This document shows, piece after piece, positions 36,522 through 45,120 of a stretch of DNA of 64,000 nt. The notes beneath the pieces were generated by a model. The model searched no databases and was not told the DNA's origin. It was given only the letters and a program-made list of their open reading frames with translations. Every line of letters starts with the position of its first letter. The first letter of the stretch is position 1. Both the position numbers and the translations under genes were made by a program. This stretch comes from Sediminicola luteus. Lineage in GTDB: Bacteria; Bacteroidota; Bacteroidia; Flavobacteriales; Flavobacteriaceae. Where the stretch lies: contig NZ_NBWU01000004.1 of the NCBI RefSeq assembly GCF_002514735.1, positions 124,001-188,000 on the forward strand. Reading direction: 5' to 3'.

Positions 36522-36851
36522 ATGGGACTTACCAAAACGGAAATATTTACGGAAGAGCAGAACCAAATCGCCCAATGGGCCAAGGTTTTGGGGCATCCGG
36601 CCCGTATTGCCATATTGCAACATCTGTTTAAAACCGATGCCTGTATCTGTGGCGATTTGGTAGATGTTATCGGTTTGGCCCAACCTACCATATCCCAACA
36701 CTTAAAAGAATTGAAGAAAGTAGGTATTATACAAGGTACCATTGAAGGCACCAGTGTTTGTTACTGCATCAACCAAAAGGGTTGGCATCAAATGCAAACG
36801 GCCCTTAGTGGTTTTATGGACTTAACCCAAGGTCCAAAGGATTGCTGTTAA
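36522..36851 (+). CDS. ArsR-family metalloregulator
   Basis: 109 residues. A winged HTH with the ArsR signature: KVLGHPARIAILQHL, DACICGDLVDVIG (Cys-x-Cys in the alpha-3-type metal site, like ELCVCDL), and PTISQHLKELKKVGIIQG in the recognition helix. The C-terminus ends in a vicinal Cys pair (PKDCC). These thiols suggest As(III) or a similar soft metal as inducer. Typical arsenic operon members follow (DUF6428, arsenate-reductase-like phosphatase), but no ACR3 or ArsB efflux gene is present before the operon ends. Confidence 0.9.
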   Translation: MGLTKTEIFTEEQNQIAQWAKVLGHPARIAILQHLFKTDACICGDLVDVIGLAQPTISQHLKELKKVGIIQGTIEGTSVCYCINQKGWHQMQTALSGFMDLTQGPKDCC

Positions 36852-36866
36852 AAAAATTTAGAACAA

Positions 36867-36879
36867 TTAATCGTAATAT
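36867..36879 (+). promoter_or_regulatory. Second copy of the ArsR-operon motif
   Basis: TTAATCGTAATAT is identical to 36490-36502 and lies 5 bases before the ATG of the DUF6428 gene. An operator here could add control over the second gene or bind the regulator as a second site. Confidence 0.5.
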
Positions 36880-36883
36880 AACA

Positions 36884-37354
36884 ATGAAAGTTTCAGAGAT
36901 AAAAAAACAACTAGGCCAATTGGAGCAGATCGCTTTCCAATTGCCCAATGGCGATTTGGTTCCCAGACATTTCCACGTGACCGAAGTCGGGGAGGTACAG
37001 AAAAAATTCATTGATTGTGGGGGCACCGTTCGCGAAGAGAAACGCGTGAATTTCCAATTGTGGGAAGCCAACGACTATGACCACAGACTACACCCAGAAA
37101 AACTGGTCAAGATCATTGAACTGTCTGAACAAGTCTTGGGCTTGGGCGACCATGAAATCGAAGTGGAATACCAAGGCGAGACCATAGGTAAATACGACCT
37201 CGATTTCAATGGAACCCATTTTTTATTGATGGCCAAGGCCACCGATTGTTTGGCACAGGATAAATGTGGTATTCCGGAAGACAAGCTCAAAGTACGCCTG
37301 GCAGACCTACAAGAACAAACCGATTGTTGTACCCCAGGCTCCGGCTGTTGCTAA
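36884..37354 (+). CDS. DUF6428-type protein with C-terminal cysteine pairs
   Basis: 156 residues from the ATG at 36884 (the open frame starts upstream at 36842, overlapping the ArsR gene, but would add 14 residues with no support). The N-terminus MKVSEIKKQLGQLEQIAFQL and the central HVTEVGEVQKKFIDCGGTVR are characteristic of the protein usually encoded between arsR and the arsenate reductase-like gene in Bacteroidota. The tail DCCTPGSGCC holds four cysteines in two vicinal pairs, a plausible As(III)-binding site. Its function is unknown. A role as arsenic chaperone or sensor is inference. Confidence 0.8.
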   Translation: MKVSEIKKQLGQLEQIAFQLPNGDLVPRHFHVTEVGEVQKKFIDCGGTVREEKRVNFQLWEANDYDHRLHPEKLVKIIELSEQVLGLGDHEIEVEYQGETIGKYDLDFNGTHFLLMAKATDCLAQDKCGIPEDKLKVRLADLQEQTDCCTPGSGCC

Positions 37355-37365
37355 ATCCAAACCCT

Positions 37366-37968
37366 ATGTACCCGACCATTACCCAGCATCTAAACCAATT
37401 AGCAGCCGTACCCGAAGACCGTAAAGCCGTGTTGCAACCCTTAATAGAACAACTACAATCCAAAAAGGACAAGGGCGAGGCCATTCGTTTGAATTTTATC
37501 TGTACGCACAATTCCAGGCGTAGCCATCTATCACAGATATGGGCCCAAGTTGCCGCCCATAAATACGGTCTTGATAAGGTAGTTACCTATTCCGGGGGTA
37601 CCGAAGCCACGGCCATGTTTCCCAAAGTAGCCGAAACCTTGATCGATCAAGGCTTTACCATAGATACCCTATCCCAAGGCGATAATCCGGTGTATATGGT
37701 ACGCTTCGATGAAAACGAAGCCCCCATTATCGGTTTTTCGAAACGGTTCGATTATACCTTTAATCCGCAAAGTGGTTTTACGGCCATTATGACCTGTTCC
37801 CAGGCCGATGAAGGCTGTCCGTTTATAGCCGGTGCCGAAAAACGGGTCCCGATTACCTATGAAGACCCAAAGGTCTCGGATGGTACCCCGGAACAAGCGG
37901 TGGTATATGCCGAGCGCAGTTTACAGATAGCTAGCGAAATGGATTATGTGTTTTCGCAAGTGGTCTAA
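37366..37968 (+). CDS. Low-molecular-weight phosphatase / arsenate reductase-like protein
   Basis: 200 residues from the ATG at 37366 (an in-frame ATG at 37264 would overlap the DUF6428 gene). The phosphate-binding loop of the LMW tyrosine phosphatase fold is Cys-x5-Arg in ICTHNSRRSHLSQ, and a later MTCSQADEGCPFI segment supplies two further cysteines. ArsC enzymes of the thioredoxin-coupled class use such cysteines to reduce arsenate to arsenite. The ArsR context supports that role, while phosphatase activity is the alternative. The third gene of the operon, with an 11-base gap before it. Confidence 0.85.
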   Translation: MYPTITQHLNQLAAVPEDRKAVLQPLIEQLQSKKDKGEAIRLNFICTHNSRRSHLSQIWAQVAAHKYGLDKVVTYSGGTEATAMFPKVAETLIDQGFTIDTLSQGDNPVYMVRFDENEAPIIGFSKRFDYTFNPQSGFTAIMTCSQADEGCPFIAGAEKRVPITYEDPKVSDGTPEQAVVYAERSLQIASEMDYVFSQVV

Positions 37969-39630: not shown

Positions 39631-40224
39631 TCAACCCTTGTTGAACTTATATATCAAACCAACTTTAACATCTTGTAAACCGGCACCGAATTCTGTTTTC
39701 TTAGTAACGGGCGCACCGCTATAATCAGGCTTGGAACGTTCGAAAGACAAAACACCCAAAGAAGCCTCCAAGGCAAAATTCTTCGACATCCAAAAGGTCA
39801 TACCCCCAGAAAGTGCCGTAGCAAAACCTTTGGCATTAATTTCATTACCTCCTTGTTTCTCCTTTTTACGTACATAATCCAATTCACCTTGGACAAATAG
39901 GGTAAATCGTTTTTTAGGGGTAAAATAATACCGCCCAAAAACGCCGGCAGAGAAATTGTTTAATTTAATATCGGCCTCGTCGGCCACTTCTTTTTTCAAA
40001 TTTCCCACCTTAAAACCGGCACCTAGTGCCACATGGTCACTGATCATAAGTCCTAACGAGGGCGAGAATTCGAATTGATCGGTTTTAAGATCACCCACCT
40101 TATCGGCTCCAAAGGCAAAGTTACCGGAAACGGCTACGTCCCCTTTTTGAAGTCCGAAATCTTGCGCATATCCAAGGCTACTTATAAAGGCAAGTACTAG
40201 CGTAAATACAATTGTTTTTTTCAT
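39631..40224 (-). CDS. Small outer membrane beta-barrel protein
   Basis: 197 residues with a signal peptide (MKKTIVFTLVLAFISSLGYAQ) and alternating polar/aromatic strands typical of an eight-stranded OmpX/OmpW-like porin. The N-terminus of the mature protein (DFGLQKGDVAVSGNFAFGAD) and the C-terminal strand (DVKVGLIYKFNKG) fit the family. Function is not assignable. Upstream, three TTGA-N6-TCAA sites are shared with the divergent radical SAM gene, so expression may respond to oxygen, nitric oxide or a nucleotide signal (inference). Confidence 0.83.
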   Translation of the reverse strand: MKKTIVFTLVLAFISSLGYAQDFGLQKGDVAVSGNFAFGADKVGDLKTDQFEFSPSLGLMISDHVALGAGFKVGNLKKEVADEADIKLNNFSAGVFGRYYFTPKKRFTLFVQGELDYVRKKEKQGGNEINAKGFATALSGGMTFWMSKNFALEASLGVLSFERSKPDYSGAPVTKKTEFGAGLQDVKVGLIYKFNKG

Positions 40225-40301
40225 GACTTAAGAATTATTCCCGCAGCACGGGATGATTAAAAATGATGGTACAAAGTTGTTGCTGAAAACCCTTTTCGGC
40301 T

Positions 40302-40389
40302 TTGACCTAAATCAAATTTGGCTGAAGTGTTATGGTATTTTGACCTAGGTCAAAAAAACGGGTCAGCCTTCGATTTTGACCTAGGACAA
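40302..40389. promoter_or_regulatory. Three FNR/CRP-like sites in a divergent promoter
   Basis: TTGACCTAAATCAA (40302-40315), TTGACCTAGGTCAA (40340-40353, within an 18-bp palindrome 40338-40355) and TTGACCTAGGACAA (40376-40389) each fit TTGA-N6-TCAA, the third with one mismatch. The plus-strand ACTTTG box (TTTG 40416-40419) and the minus-strand mirror (CAAA at 40272-40275) put the inferred start sites near 40424 and 40267. The outer sites then centre about 41.5 bases upstream of each, the class II position of FNR/CRP activators. Confidence 0.7.
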
Positions 40390-40449
40390 AAGAATATTTA
40401 CATAAGTGGATGAACTTTGTACCCACGTTTAACCCCAAAATGTTTTGTT

Positions 40450-41655
40450 ATGAAAGTCTATTTGATAAAAGCCTCTGCAGGCTCTGACTATTCAAAGTAT
40501 AAAGCGGAAACGGGTGGGCCTCCACAGAACATATTCTCTACCGCTGCCGCAACACCGAATTGGGTGGAGTTGGAAATGACCGACGAAACCATAGGACAGA
40601 AAGCCAATCTAAAAAGTGAGGCTGAATTGGTGGCCATTTTCATGTCTACCCCCGATGCTTGGCGAGCCTATGAATTGGCCGAGCATTACCACAACCAAGG
40701 CAAGACCATAGTTTTGGGCGGATTACATACCAAATTCATGCCCGACGAGGCCCAAGAAAATGCCGATGCCCTTTTGATCGGGGAATCGGAAGGGGTTTGG
40801 GAAGAATTATTGGTAGATTATTACAAAGATGAACTCAAACCAAGATATCAGCGTACCGAACCGGTAGACCTGGCCCAACTGAATCCGTATCCAACGCATT
40901 TGATCGAACCCAGGGTGTATAACTACACCTGGTCGGTATTGGTTTCCCGGGGCTGCCCCAATAAATGCCAGTTCTGTTTAGTGCATAAGTTTTTCCCGAA
41001 GTTCCAGACCCGCCCCATTGAAAACATAGTCGAAGAGGTTCGGCATTTAAAGGGACTAGGCGTGGAATGGGTCGAACTACACTCCGATAATCTCACCCAA
41101 GACAAAGCCTATGCTATAGCCTTGTTCAAGGCCCTTAAACCCTTGAATATGAAATTCTATGGCGAAACGACGATTCTTATCGCTAGAGATCCAGAATTGT
41201 TAAATGCGGCCCGAGAAGCAGGGGTACGAAGTTTATTATTCGGTATAGAAACCCCTTCGGAAGAAGCCTTGAAAGCCCAGGGAAAGGCCTTTGTAAAACC
41301 CCATAAAATAAAGGAATACGTACAAATCGTTAAAGACCACGGCATAGAAGTTTGGGGCGACATTTTATTTGGATTCGAAGAGCATACCGAGAAAATATTC
41401 AAGCAAACCTGGGATTTTATCCGCGACATAAAATTGGACCGGACCATTCCGCATTTGGTCATCCCATTCCCAGGTTCCGGAACTTTTGAAAATTTAGAGA
41501 AAGAAGGCAGAATTTTAACCCACGATTGGTCTAAGTACGATGGTTCACATGTGGTGTACCAACCCAAACATATGTCGGCCACAACCTTGGAATATGGAGT
41601 AACCGATTTTTTCAACAAGTTGAACAACCCCATCAGAAGATGGTTAAATATTTAA
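40450..41655 (+). CDS. B12-binding-type radical SAM protein
   Basis: 401 residues from the ATG at 40450. A TTG at 40417 lies upstream of the predicted start site and is unlikely. The N-terminal B12-binding-like domain (about 1-130) ends near IGESEGVWEELL. The radical SAM core follows, with Cys-x3-Cys-x2-Cys in SRGCPNKCQFCLVH and the VWGDILFGFEE segment. The family includes BchE-like oxygen-independent cyclases and methyltransferases, acting on porphyrins, lipids or RNA. Substrate unknown. Placement beside FNR-like sites suits an oxygen-sensitive enzyme. The 62-residue membrane protein gene follows 4 bases later. Confidence 0.88.
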   Translation: MKVYLIKASAGSDYSKYKAETGGPPQNIFSTAAATPNWVELEMTDETIGQKANLKSEAELVAIFMSTPDAWRAYELAEHYHNQGKTIVLGGLHTKFMPDEAQENADALLIGESEGVWEELLVDYYKDELKPRYQRTEPVDLAQLNPYPTHLIEPRVYNYTWSVLVSRGCPNKCQFCLVHKFFPKFQTRPIENIVEEVRHLKGLGVEWVELHSDNLTQDKAYAIALFKALKPLNMKFYGETTILIARDPELLNAAREAGVRSLLFGIETPSEEALKAQGKAFVKPHKIKEYVQIVKDHGIEVWGDILFGFEEHTEKIFKQTWDFIRDIKLDRTIPHLVIPFPGSGTFENLEKEGRILTHDWSKYDGSHVVYQPKHMSATTLEYGVTDFFNKLNNPIRRWLNI

Positions 41656-42283: not shown

Positions 42284-43621
42284 TTAATATTGCCTTAATA
42301 TTTTTTTAGCCTCACGAATACCACTTAAATAGGCGCCATGCACAGTACCTCTATAATCGACAATGGTGTGCTCTCCAGCGAAGAAAATTTTATTGTCCAC
42401 AGGTTCTTCGAATACTTCGAAGTCAGCTGCCGTAGTGCCTTTTGTAGCAAAAGAGTATGAGCCAAAAGTATAGGAATCTATATTCCATTTGGTACGTAGC
42501 ATATGCGTAGGCTCTGGAATATCTTGGCCATAAATGATTTTTAAATGCCCCATGATTTCATGGGTAATCGCAGCATCTGACATGCTTTCGGTGGCTTTGG
42601 AATAATCCCCAAAAGCAAACGTCATTAAAGCATGAGCGTTAGTAAACTTACTTACATTCAGAAAGTAATTGAATTTACCCTTTTGTTCAGGCGTATACCC
42701 AATATACTGTAGCTGGTTATCCCAAAACGGGGCATCCCAGGTTAAAAGGAATTTGTTCACGGATCCCATTTCCAAGCCGTTGATAGCATTTTGCGTAGGT
42801 TTTGGCAAACTTGGGTTGAATGTAATAACACCTTGCTTTAAAACCCCTAAAGGAACAGTAACCAATACATAGTCGGCTTCAAACTGGCCTTGGCTCGTGC
42901 TTATAATCGTTTTTTCTTGGGAATAGTCAATTTTTTGAACCTTAGTATTCAACCTTACATCGATTCCCTTTGCAAGAAAATCAGTAACTCTATCAAATCC
43001 ATTGGTAATTATAACGTCATCCCCTCTAAATGCTTCATCATCGTAGAAATAGGTAGATGAGAGTTTGTTTATATCACCACCCGTATCAAATTCAAGAAAG
43101 GCAGACAACATATAGGTCCATAAGCGATCATTGCGCAGTTGGGGATGCTGCCCATAAAATGCATCTCCAAAACTTTGGTGGGTATTGCCATTTAGACGGT
43201 TTAGATTTTTTCTGTATTGGGCCTCTGCCTTATCAAGTACAGATTCAGCATAGGGCGTTCCGTTAAAATCGTAAACCTTGACGAGATCGTCTCTAGTTAA
43301 AAAAGTATTCGCCCCAGATTCGGTGGCCAAAGATGTTATTGGGTTACCTTTGGGACCATGGATCCAGCTTGCGCCTTCATCGAAGGCAATACCCAAACTT
43401 CGATCGGTTCTCAATCTGCCGCCAATTTTATCACTGGCCTCTAATACTATGGGGTTTACCCCTTTATCCTTAAAATAATTGGCAGCGGCCAAGCCTGATA
43501 TACCTGCGCCCACGATGACGACTTTTTTTGAGGAATCGCTCGGATCGTTATTTATGCTTTCGGAATTATTACAGGAACCGATAGATGTTAGTAGAAAACA
43601 AGTTGCGATTAAGAAGTTCAT
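42284..43621 (-). CDS. FAD-dependent amine oxidase, probable lipoprotein
   Basis: 445 residues from the ATG at 43621 (the open frame to 43660 adds 13 residues before the signal). The signal peptide MNFLIATCFLLTSIGSC has lipobox ISC-like residues IGSC with Cys17 as the lipid-bearing residue. The Rossmann motif VVIVGAGISGLAAANYF and RLRTDRSLGIAFDEGASWIHG are typical of flavin monoamine/polyamine oxidases, and the C-terminal FAD motif is FFAGEHTIVDYRGTVHGAYLSG. FAD enzymes are rarely exported by Sec. It oxidises amines or related compounds in the envelope (inference). Confidence 0.87.
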   Translation of the reverse strand: MNFLIATCFLLTSIGSCNNSESINNDPSDSSKKVVIVGAGISGLAAANYFKDKGVNPIVLEASDKIGGRLRTDRSLGIAFDEGASWIHGPKGNPITSLATESGANTFLTRDDLVKVYDFNGTPYAESVLDKAEAQYRKNLNRLNGNTHQSFGDAFYGQHPQLRNDRLWTYMLSAFLEFDTGGDINKLSSTYFYDDEAFRGDDVIITNGFDRVTDFLAKGIDVRLNTKVQKIDYSQEKTIISTSQGQFEADYVLVTVPLGVLKQGVITFNPSLPKPTQNAINGLEMGSVNKFLLTWDAPFWDNQLQYIGYTPEQKGKFNYFLNVSKFTNAHALMTFAFGDYSKATESMSDAAITHEIMGHLKIIYGQDIPEPTHMLRTKWNIDSYTFGSYSFATKGTTAADFEVFEEPVDNKIFFAGEHTIVDYRGTVHGAYLSGIREAKKILRQY

Positions 43622-43716
43622 ATTTTGAAATTTCAATGGTGTGTTTTTTATAGTATTCACTTTAATGGGTACGTTTAAGTTAACGAAATATTTGCAAATT
43701 GCTACCCCTCAGATGT

Positions 43717-45120
43717 TTACCGAAGTAACTTATTTACTTTTTGAGCGGTTATGTAACCACTTAAAATGGCCCCATCGACCACGGCGTATTTCATATAGTC
43801 GCCCGTCAAGAAAATGGTTTTGTTCAATGAGGAGTCGTTTTCAAGTTTTTGCAAGAGGGAATAGTACCCCAACCCAAATACGGGATAGGCATAATTGAAG
43901 CGTTGAACATCGAAACCCAAAACAGATTTAGAAATCCCAGGAAAATAATGTTCCATGTCTTTTAGTGTTTTTTGTAAGACATCTTCATCCGATTGAAGTA
44001 TAAACGTTTTATCCTTGGCCGTCGTACTGGGTATGTAGGCACTAATAATGCTCTTTCCATTATAATCCTCCGTGGTTTGTGTTCGTGTTACATCATAAAT
44101 AGAGGTGAAATAGTTATCTAGACAGGAGACGGTCCAAGCTTCTTTTAACCACCTCTTTTCGGTGAAAATATTTATGGTTATATACTGGCCGTAATCCACT
44201 TTACCCAATTGCTCCAGTGCTCGGGTCGAAATACTATTGGCCAAAATCTTTTTGGCAATAGGAGCAGGTGTAGTACAAATTACCTTTTTGGCTTTATACA
44301 CCTTTTTTTCACCTTGGGATCGGGCTATTACCTGCATGCTACCATCGGGTTGTTGGTTAACCGATATTACTTCTGTGCCGTACTTTATCTTGGCTTCCAG
44401 TTTTTCAGATAGGGCATTACTTAAATCTACCATACCGTTTTCAAACGTGAATACCTCGCTCTCCCAAAAATCTTTGGGACTGGGTAGGTTGTAAGCCATT
44501 TCATTAGCATTGTACAAAATGGAGAGCTCTTCATTGTTGGCACTGAAAAGGCCAAGGTTCTCGATTTCGATATACCGTTGAATAAGAGGGTGGATCTGGT
44601 TTTCGCTTAACCATTGCGCAACCGACACATCATCTAGGGTGCTATATGTATCTATATCTTCACCCTCCCAGAGCACCCCTTCGGTAGCTTTGTCCAATTT
44701 TGATAGTTTACGCTGTAATGCCTTAAATTGGTTCCTGTCTTTTTTGGTGGGCAAAAAATCAAGGATTCCCGCTTTGGTATAAATTGTGCCTTTATAACCT
44801 ATACCATCGGTAGGCGGGGGAATCTGGATTACATCTAAATCCAAGTCGGTTATCAGTTGTTTTAAAACACCTTCGGGTTTGCCCATGTATTCGGTCCCTT
44901 TTGGGTAATGGAAACCGTTCCATTGCCCATCGATTATCCTACCTCCGGCCTGGGCCTTTCTTTCAAGTATCAGCACATTGTTGGTCTTCAAATAATATGC
45001 TGAGGTAAGTCCAGATAAACCGGCCCCAATGATAATAACCTCATGGGTTTTTTCTTGGCCATTGACCGATACATTAAGTATTACCGAAAGTAGCAACCCT
45101 AATAAACTTGCTTTTCTCAT
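43717..45120 (-). CDS. Exported FAD-dependent amine oxidase-like protein
   Basis: 467 residues with a Sec signal peptide (about 1-21, SLLGLLLSVILNVSVNGQ). The FAD domain begins VIIIGAGLSGLTSAYYL, followed by RKAQAGGRIID and the FAD-binding end near FLTGDYMKYAVVDGAILSG, where the Gly-Glu of oxidases reads Gly-Asp. It is similar in order to the neighbour at 42284 but differs strongly in sequence and length. The 95-base gap between the genes suggests one operon. Protoporphyrinogen oxidase/phytoene-desaturase-like activity is an alternative. Substrate unknown. Confidence 0.84.
   Translation of the reverse strand: MRKASLLGLLLSVILNVSVNGQEKTHEVIIIGAGLSGLTSAYYLKTNNVLILERKAQAGGRIIDGQWNGFHYPKGTEYMGKPEGVLKQLITDLDLDVIQIPPPTDGIGYKGTIYTKAGILDFLPTKKDRNQFKALQRKLSKLDKATEGVLWEGEDIDTYSTLDDVSVAQWLSENQIHPLIQRYIEIENLGLFSANNEELSILYNANEMAYNLPSPKDFWESEVFTFENGMVDLSNALSEKLEAKIKYGTEVISVNQQPDGSMQVIARSQGEKKVYKAKKVICTTPAPIAKKILANSISTRALEQLGKVDYGQYITINIFTEKRWLKEAWTVSCLDNYFTSIYDVTRTQTTEDYNGKSIISAYIPSTTAKDKTFILQSDEDVLQKTLKDMEHYFPGISKSVLGFDVQRFNYAYPVFGLGYYSLLQKLENDSSLNKTIFLTGDYMKYAVVDGAILSGYITAQKVNKLLR

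Follow-up and report, generated by a model that had tools for sequence, protein, structure and literature searches.

At class II promoters of the E. coli type, a palindromic CRP/FNR site centered at -41.5 replaces a good upstream promoter element, and paired or tandem sites occur. The E-x-x-S-R arrangement of the recognition helix, as in FNR, fits TTGA half-sites. To our knowledge, short Crp-type proteins are numerous in Bacteroidota genomes, and their targets and signals are mostly unknown. The -7 element described for Flavobacterium johnsoniae reads T-12 A-11 T-8 T-7 T-6 G-5 (PMC6847099). In the delta-proteobacteria, the Crp/Fnr-family regulator HcpR recognizes TTGAC half-sites around a 4-base center and targets hcp and frdX (PMC1274295).

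We examined a 225-bp gap between two divergent genes of Sediminicola luteus in the window, the whole stretch of 64,000 nucleotides that was analyzed. The gap resembles the E. coli-type class II promoters in the -41.5 placement of a palindromic site for a Crp-family protein, but its core promoters are of the Bacteroidota TAnnTTTG type rather than a -10 TATAAT, and the candidate regulator is a short form of ~190 aa whose model lacks the C-terminal wing. With delta-proteobacterial HcpR it has in common the half-site, the 4-base center and the regulator family, whereas the genome has no hcp. The kind of system is already known. The regulon and the regulator clade appear to be undescribed in the literature searched, which held no description of the motif, the regulon or the protein families in Bacteroidota and covered few of the subscription journals.

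Genes and predicted promoters of the divergent gap

The gap separates the genes for an outer membrane beta-barrel protein of 197 aa (OMP_b-brl; 39631..40224, minus strand) and a B12-binding/radical SAM protein of 401 aa (40450..41655, plus strand). The first-pass annotation had called both products in these terms, and Pfam matches bore it out (PF13505, 8.9e-08, for the barrel; PF04055, 1.1e-17, and PF02310, 6.6e-06, for the enzyme, its B12-binding match being weak). The start of the radical SAM gene at ATG 40450 agrees with its orthologs. Against NCBIfam, the protein falls near BchE, Sden_1168 and HpnJ at 84-94 bits, where the cut-offs are 481-578 bits; it belongs to none of the known B12-radical SAM families (BchE, HpnJ, PhpK and others; best score 93.5 bits vs 481), and its matches to solved structures are weak at best. 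It shares with BchE, HpnJ and Sden_1168 the radical SAM core, the CxxxCxxC motif and a weak B12 domain but, unlike them, is part of a distinct family of ~400-500 aa that occurs in several phyla. The gene is rare (3/99 genomes, the own included). A scan of 84,980 genomes yielded 39 related loci at 50-71% identity in Flavobacteriaceae, Bacteroidales/Marinilabiliales, Vibrio, Colwellia, Thiotrichales, a Hahella MAG, Desulfobacterales and others, a scattered pattern that suggests horizontal spread of the gene. A divergent barrel gene is also present in an Aureivirga relative; homology between the window's barrel and the barrel family of the relatives was undetected, with no BLASTP alignment between them.

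Two neighboring clusters in the window carry no site. One, upstream of a sulfatase gene (36522-37968), looks by eye like an arsenic-resistance cluster (an ArsR-like regulator, a small protein and a low-molecular-weight phosphatase/arsenate reductase-like protein) and lies outside the regulon. The other, adjoining the radical SAM gene (42284-45120), is a tandem pair encoding exported flavin-containing amine oxidase-like proteins.

Three activator sites are predicted in the gap. Site 1, TTGACCTAAATCAA (40302-40315, no strand), is centered at -41.5 of the barrel gene; site 2, TTGACCTAGGTCAA (40340-40353), is common to both promoters at about -77.5/-79.5; and site 3, TTGACCTAGGACAA (40376-40389, no strand), is centered at -41.5 of the radical SAM gene. 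Re-reading the positions in the sequence gave the spacings of 38 and 36 bases that had been claimed, and the palindrome said to enclose the middle site is present as a perfect 18-base TTTTGACCTAGGTCAAAA (40338-40355, no strand). The third site is imperfect, with GACAA for GTCAA, one base off the palindrome. TTGAC...CAA sites occur three times in the gap and in none of 5000 dinucleotide shuffles of it. Further, the pattern TTGACNTNNNNCAA has four strand-matches in the window (0.56 expected), all of them in this gap, and TTGAYNTANRTCAA was found at 12 places in the 4.56-Mb genome compared with 0 for the reversed control.

Each gene has a -7 box facing its nearer outer site. The box of the barrel gene lies at 40272-40279 on the minus strand (TTTG 40275-40272) and that of the radical SAM gene, GAACTTTG, at 40412-40419 on the plus strand (TTTG 40416-40419). 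The distance from site center to the first T of TTTG is 33.5 bp for both site 1 and site 3. From TTTG and the F. johnsoniae -7 element (PMC6847099), we predicted transcription starts at 40267 (minus strand, barrel gene) and 40424 (plus strand, radical SAM gene). Because of the shared 33.5-bp distance and the published F. johnsoniae numbering (PMC6847099), the outer centers fall at -41.5 for both genes, a figure that depends on the position of the published Flavobacterium -7 box and on predicted starts. The symmetric class II placement at about -41.5 that had been proposed therefore holds with respect to predicted starts. Two marks of class II promoters are found, namely a palindromic site centered at -41.5 from the (predicted) start and rigid spacing across the regulon. 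As read from the sequence, the gap is a putative divergent double switch, with a CRP/FNR-family protein equidistant from both promoters.

Conservation of the site-to-TTTG spacing

To assess conservation, we scored radical SAM loci for a TTGA[CT]...[GA]TCAA-type site in the direction of the gene, no more than 1.5 kb upstream and with TTTG exactly at center+33. Such an arrangement precedes the gene in 17/19 Bacteroidota loci but in 0/21 elsewhere, where no upstream region held any such site (Fisher p 1.9e-9; many rows are related genomes, so that this and the other p-value given below overstate independence). Of the two remaining Bacteroidota loci, one misses this spacing by 1 bp and the other has just 611 bp of contig upstream. 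TTTG stands exactly at center+33 in 49/75 site-gene pairs and in 47/60 of the sites nearest a gene, against a background of 0.9%. When the spacer was left free (14-38) and 99 genomes were scanned without selection, a spacer of 26 accounted for 36 of the 150 matches listed, and the other 24 spacers averaged 4.75 among the same matches. Likewise, TTGAYNTANRTCAA-N26-TTTG matched 43 times in the 99 relatives and 0 times when reversed. In the Aureivirga relative (G033), the barrel and radical SAM genes likewise diverge and have three sites, of which the outer two are at +33 of both genes. Polaribacter-type relatives have an extra site 48 bp upstream at the barrel promoter.

Outside Bacteroidota, a gene for a small membrane protein of ~75-130 aa usually precedes the radical SAM gene (L041, L043-L046, L049, L051-L054, L056, L057, L061, L065, L066). 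Several of these loci include a TetR-type gene and TTGA sites are absent. This minimal module seems to spread horizontally.

Candidate regulator and its predicted targets

The best candidate for the regulator is a ~190-aa Crp-family protein encoded in the same genome at G000:C2:244596-245192, to which its clade, its co-occurrence with the regulon and its helix (QETLSR) point. The gene is on a contig other than the window's, where the nearest site is about 3.9 kb away. Crp-family genes lie near regulon genes in 14 loci, and one clade (support 97/97) unites the regulon-linked Crps of Flavobacteriaceae and Bacteroidales; C2:244596-245192 is its single member from the own genome. Among 99 relatives, the closest homologs of the candidate are in exactly those five genomes that have genes or sites of the regulon (G000, G059, G033, G061 and G071).

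The candidate has the features of the CRP/FNR superfamily, namely a cNMP-binding-type beta barrel, a dimer helix and an HTH (PF00027, 1.6e-11), and its AF2 model (pLDDT 91.8) matched 3dn7, FNR and CRP in Foldseek. The model stops at the recognition helix and the usual C-terminal wing is missing. Its nearest solved relative, the cyclic-nucleotide-binding-type regulator 3dn7 of Cytophaga hutchinsonii (2.1e-22 over 187 residues), has the same short architecture but a helix ending in EYLSEIR rather than ETLSRIR. The N-terminal CxxC and further Cys of a [4Fe-4S] FNR are lacking, the protein having two Cys, none invariant in 17 homologs. A Porphyromonas Crp homolog has been reported to bind DNA without ligand (PMC12040651), so that the short Crps of Bacteroidota cannot be taken to be ligand-dependent.

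The ETLSR helix stands at the end of 17/17 aligned homologs, so that the candidate pairs an E-x-x-S-R recognition helix with a TTGA half-site in the manner of FNR-type proteins. In a set of 20 homologs, a site adjoins the Crp gene in 11/13 with the ETLSR helix vs 0/7 without it (p 0.0005). The rule looks general for this type of helix, because several ETLSR homologs are paralogs that drive other neighbors, such as TolC-like genes. In three genomes (L092, L096 and L102, of G002, G013 and G031), paralogous ETLSR-type Crps lie beside TolC-like genes with a -41.5 site of their own, an arrangement which suggests that they may be one-target local efflux activators.

Strict sites in the own genome number 12, the window's included (reversed control, 0). 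One stands before the ABC_membrane_3 gene and one before the operon divergent from it (C2:240553 and 240636), which encodes two lipoproteins that match no Pfam family, a CxxCH protein, YceI and DUF5777. Others are upstream of the genes for a small exported protein and an OlsE-like FA_hydroxylase (C2:239395), of the gene for a 480-aa lipoprotein with a cytochrome-like end (C2:235974), of two genes for GbcA-like Rieske oxygenases, one of them followed by a PaaE/GbcB-like reductase gene (C1:405019 and C1:411921), and of another barrel gene (C1:23173). Three more (C2:659504, C5:111098 and C6:128592) are inside or behind genes and look incidental. In the own genome, the box at +33 is degenerate for four sites, those of ABC_membrane_3, of both Rieske genes and of the 480-aa lipoprotein. 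In relatives, the same gene families have sites, as do DUF1800/DUF1501 pairs and a di-heme peroxidase gene; no strict site precedes the Rieske genes of G033 and G071. A loose scan with two mismatches found 37 places vs 18 in the reversed control and was too noisy for extending the regulon.

Two readings of these genes were rejected: the small lipoprotein as a 'DUF2147', for it has no such Pfam match, and a link of the regulon to light, for the photolyase/TspO-like genes that adjoin it in the own genome have no sites and are not conserved neighbors. The lipoproteins share a conserved G(H/Q)W(V/L)G segment and fall in no Pfam family (L021:9143-10294 and L021:4034-5476); as a family they are conserved in the regulon across genera, and one member has a C-terminal cytochrome-like CxxCH. 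Near the radical SAM gene, DUF1800/DUF1501 pairs are found repeatedly in Bacteroidota and Vibrio (L035, L045, L053, L054, L073 and L145:6425-9460), and those of G071 have the -41.5 site as well, which points to a putative functional link. Old-yellow-enzyme-type (NADH:flavin oxidoreductase) genes (L093, L095 and L099, of G049, G014 and G028) also have this site, at identical spacing.

Rival regulators and the proposed pathway

Another Crp-family paralog could bind the sites, for the genome has 13 matches to the cNMP domain and a second of its Crp-family proteins, encoded in the C5:99155 region, likewise ends in ETLSR, a helix that generally goes with such sites, those of the TolC-like paralog promoters included. 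We consider this unlikely: only the C2 protein is in the clade that adjoins and co-occurs with the regulon in Flavobacteriaceae and Bacteroidales.

Activation of both genes at low oxygen by the 4-Cys FNR-type protein of the genome (C1:331408-332097, beside a ccoI-like gene; Cys 6, 9, 55 and 108) is quite unlikely. FNR boxes, TTGATnnnnATCAA, are close to the motif, and di-heme peroxidase genes in relatives have the site. Against this, the FNR type is present in 64/99 relatives and the regulon in about five, the region between the fnr-type and ccoI-like genes has no TTGA site, the recognition helix reads ATESAIR rather than ETLSR, and the regulon contains Rieske and diiron-type oxygenases that depend on O2. 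FNR itself, after which the first-pass annotation had named the sites, is not supported: the regulon-linked Crp is short and lacks the 4-Cys cluster, and the genome's own 4-Cys protein is of a type widespread without the regulon. An oxygen, NO or heme signal fared no better: the site scan that had been suggested for identifying it found no sites before hcp/nor genes or the respiratory oxidase genes of the own genome, hcp itself being absent. What stood of this expectation is that some regulon members carry heme motifs (cytochrome domains and, in relatives, the di-heme peroxidase), and the regulon may, given these members, have a redox role. Furthermore, the enzyme core outside Bacteroidota is often beside a TetR gene and without sites, a finding that speaks against oxygen or NO as an obligatory signal.

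The sites overlap the region bound by RNA polymerase and could be read as repressor operators over the -33 region. This is very improbable, for a repressor needs no single phase and the placement here is fixed to the base pair; a base-exact -41.5 across dozens of promoters is a signature of class II activation, not of repression. An HcpR/NnrR-type NO sensor is the most improbable regulator, since, for all that the core motif is identical to the published delta-proteobacterial one, TTGACnnnnGTCAA (PMC1274295), the genome has no hcp (PF03063) for it to control, nitrogen-oxide genes had no site upstream in the scans, and HcpR2 of Bacteroides and others has another motif, GTAACnnnnGTTAC (PMC1274295).

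The coordinated class II activation of both genes by a CRP/FNR-like protein that had been proposed is, as a prediction, well supported by spacing, conservation and clade. Sites, rigid spacing, conservation, and the clade and co-occurrence of the regulator were obtained by computation; from these we infer binding, activation rather than repression, and the starts. We consider it likely that two divergent class II promoters occupy the gap, with the C2 Crp as the most probable activator of both genes and of the regulon. A homodimeric Crp-family activator, most likely C2:244596-245192, would bind the outer TTGAYNTANRTCAA-type sites at -41.5, where the dimer would stand in for the -33 element and contact or recruit RNA polymerase at both TAnnTTTG promoters. 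A dimer at the middle site (about -77.5/-79.5) would provide an upstream accessory site for both. The barrel and the B12-dependent radical SAM enzyme would then be switched on jointly with the other promoters of the regulon, co-activating ABC_membrane_3, the lipoprotein-cytochrome-YceI-DUF5777 operon, the OlsE-like hydroxylase, the Rieske oxygenases with their reductase, and another barrel.

Because membrane proteins and oxygenases come together here with a B12-radical SAM enzyme, we guess, with low confidence, that the regulon serves to modify, by oxidation or radical chemistry, a (lipid-like) substrate associated with the membrane or envelope. A broader reading, possible but somewhat short of probable, is an undescribed Bacteroidota regulon in which a clade of wing-less short Crps, acting at -41.5 sites, would join a horizontally spread module (B12-radical SAM enzyme, ABC_membrane_3 and small membrane protein) with Rieske and diiron oxygenases in one envelope-modifying pathway under a new signal. 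Synteny, co-occurrence and a promoter rule exact to the base tie one short-Crp clade to a defined target set. This rule (TTGAYNTANRTCAA, 26 bases, TTTG) is usable for reading such regulons directly from sequence, and it gives a handle on a family of B12-dependent radical SAM proteins common to Vibrio, Colwellia and others.
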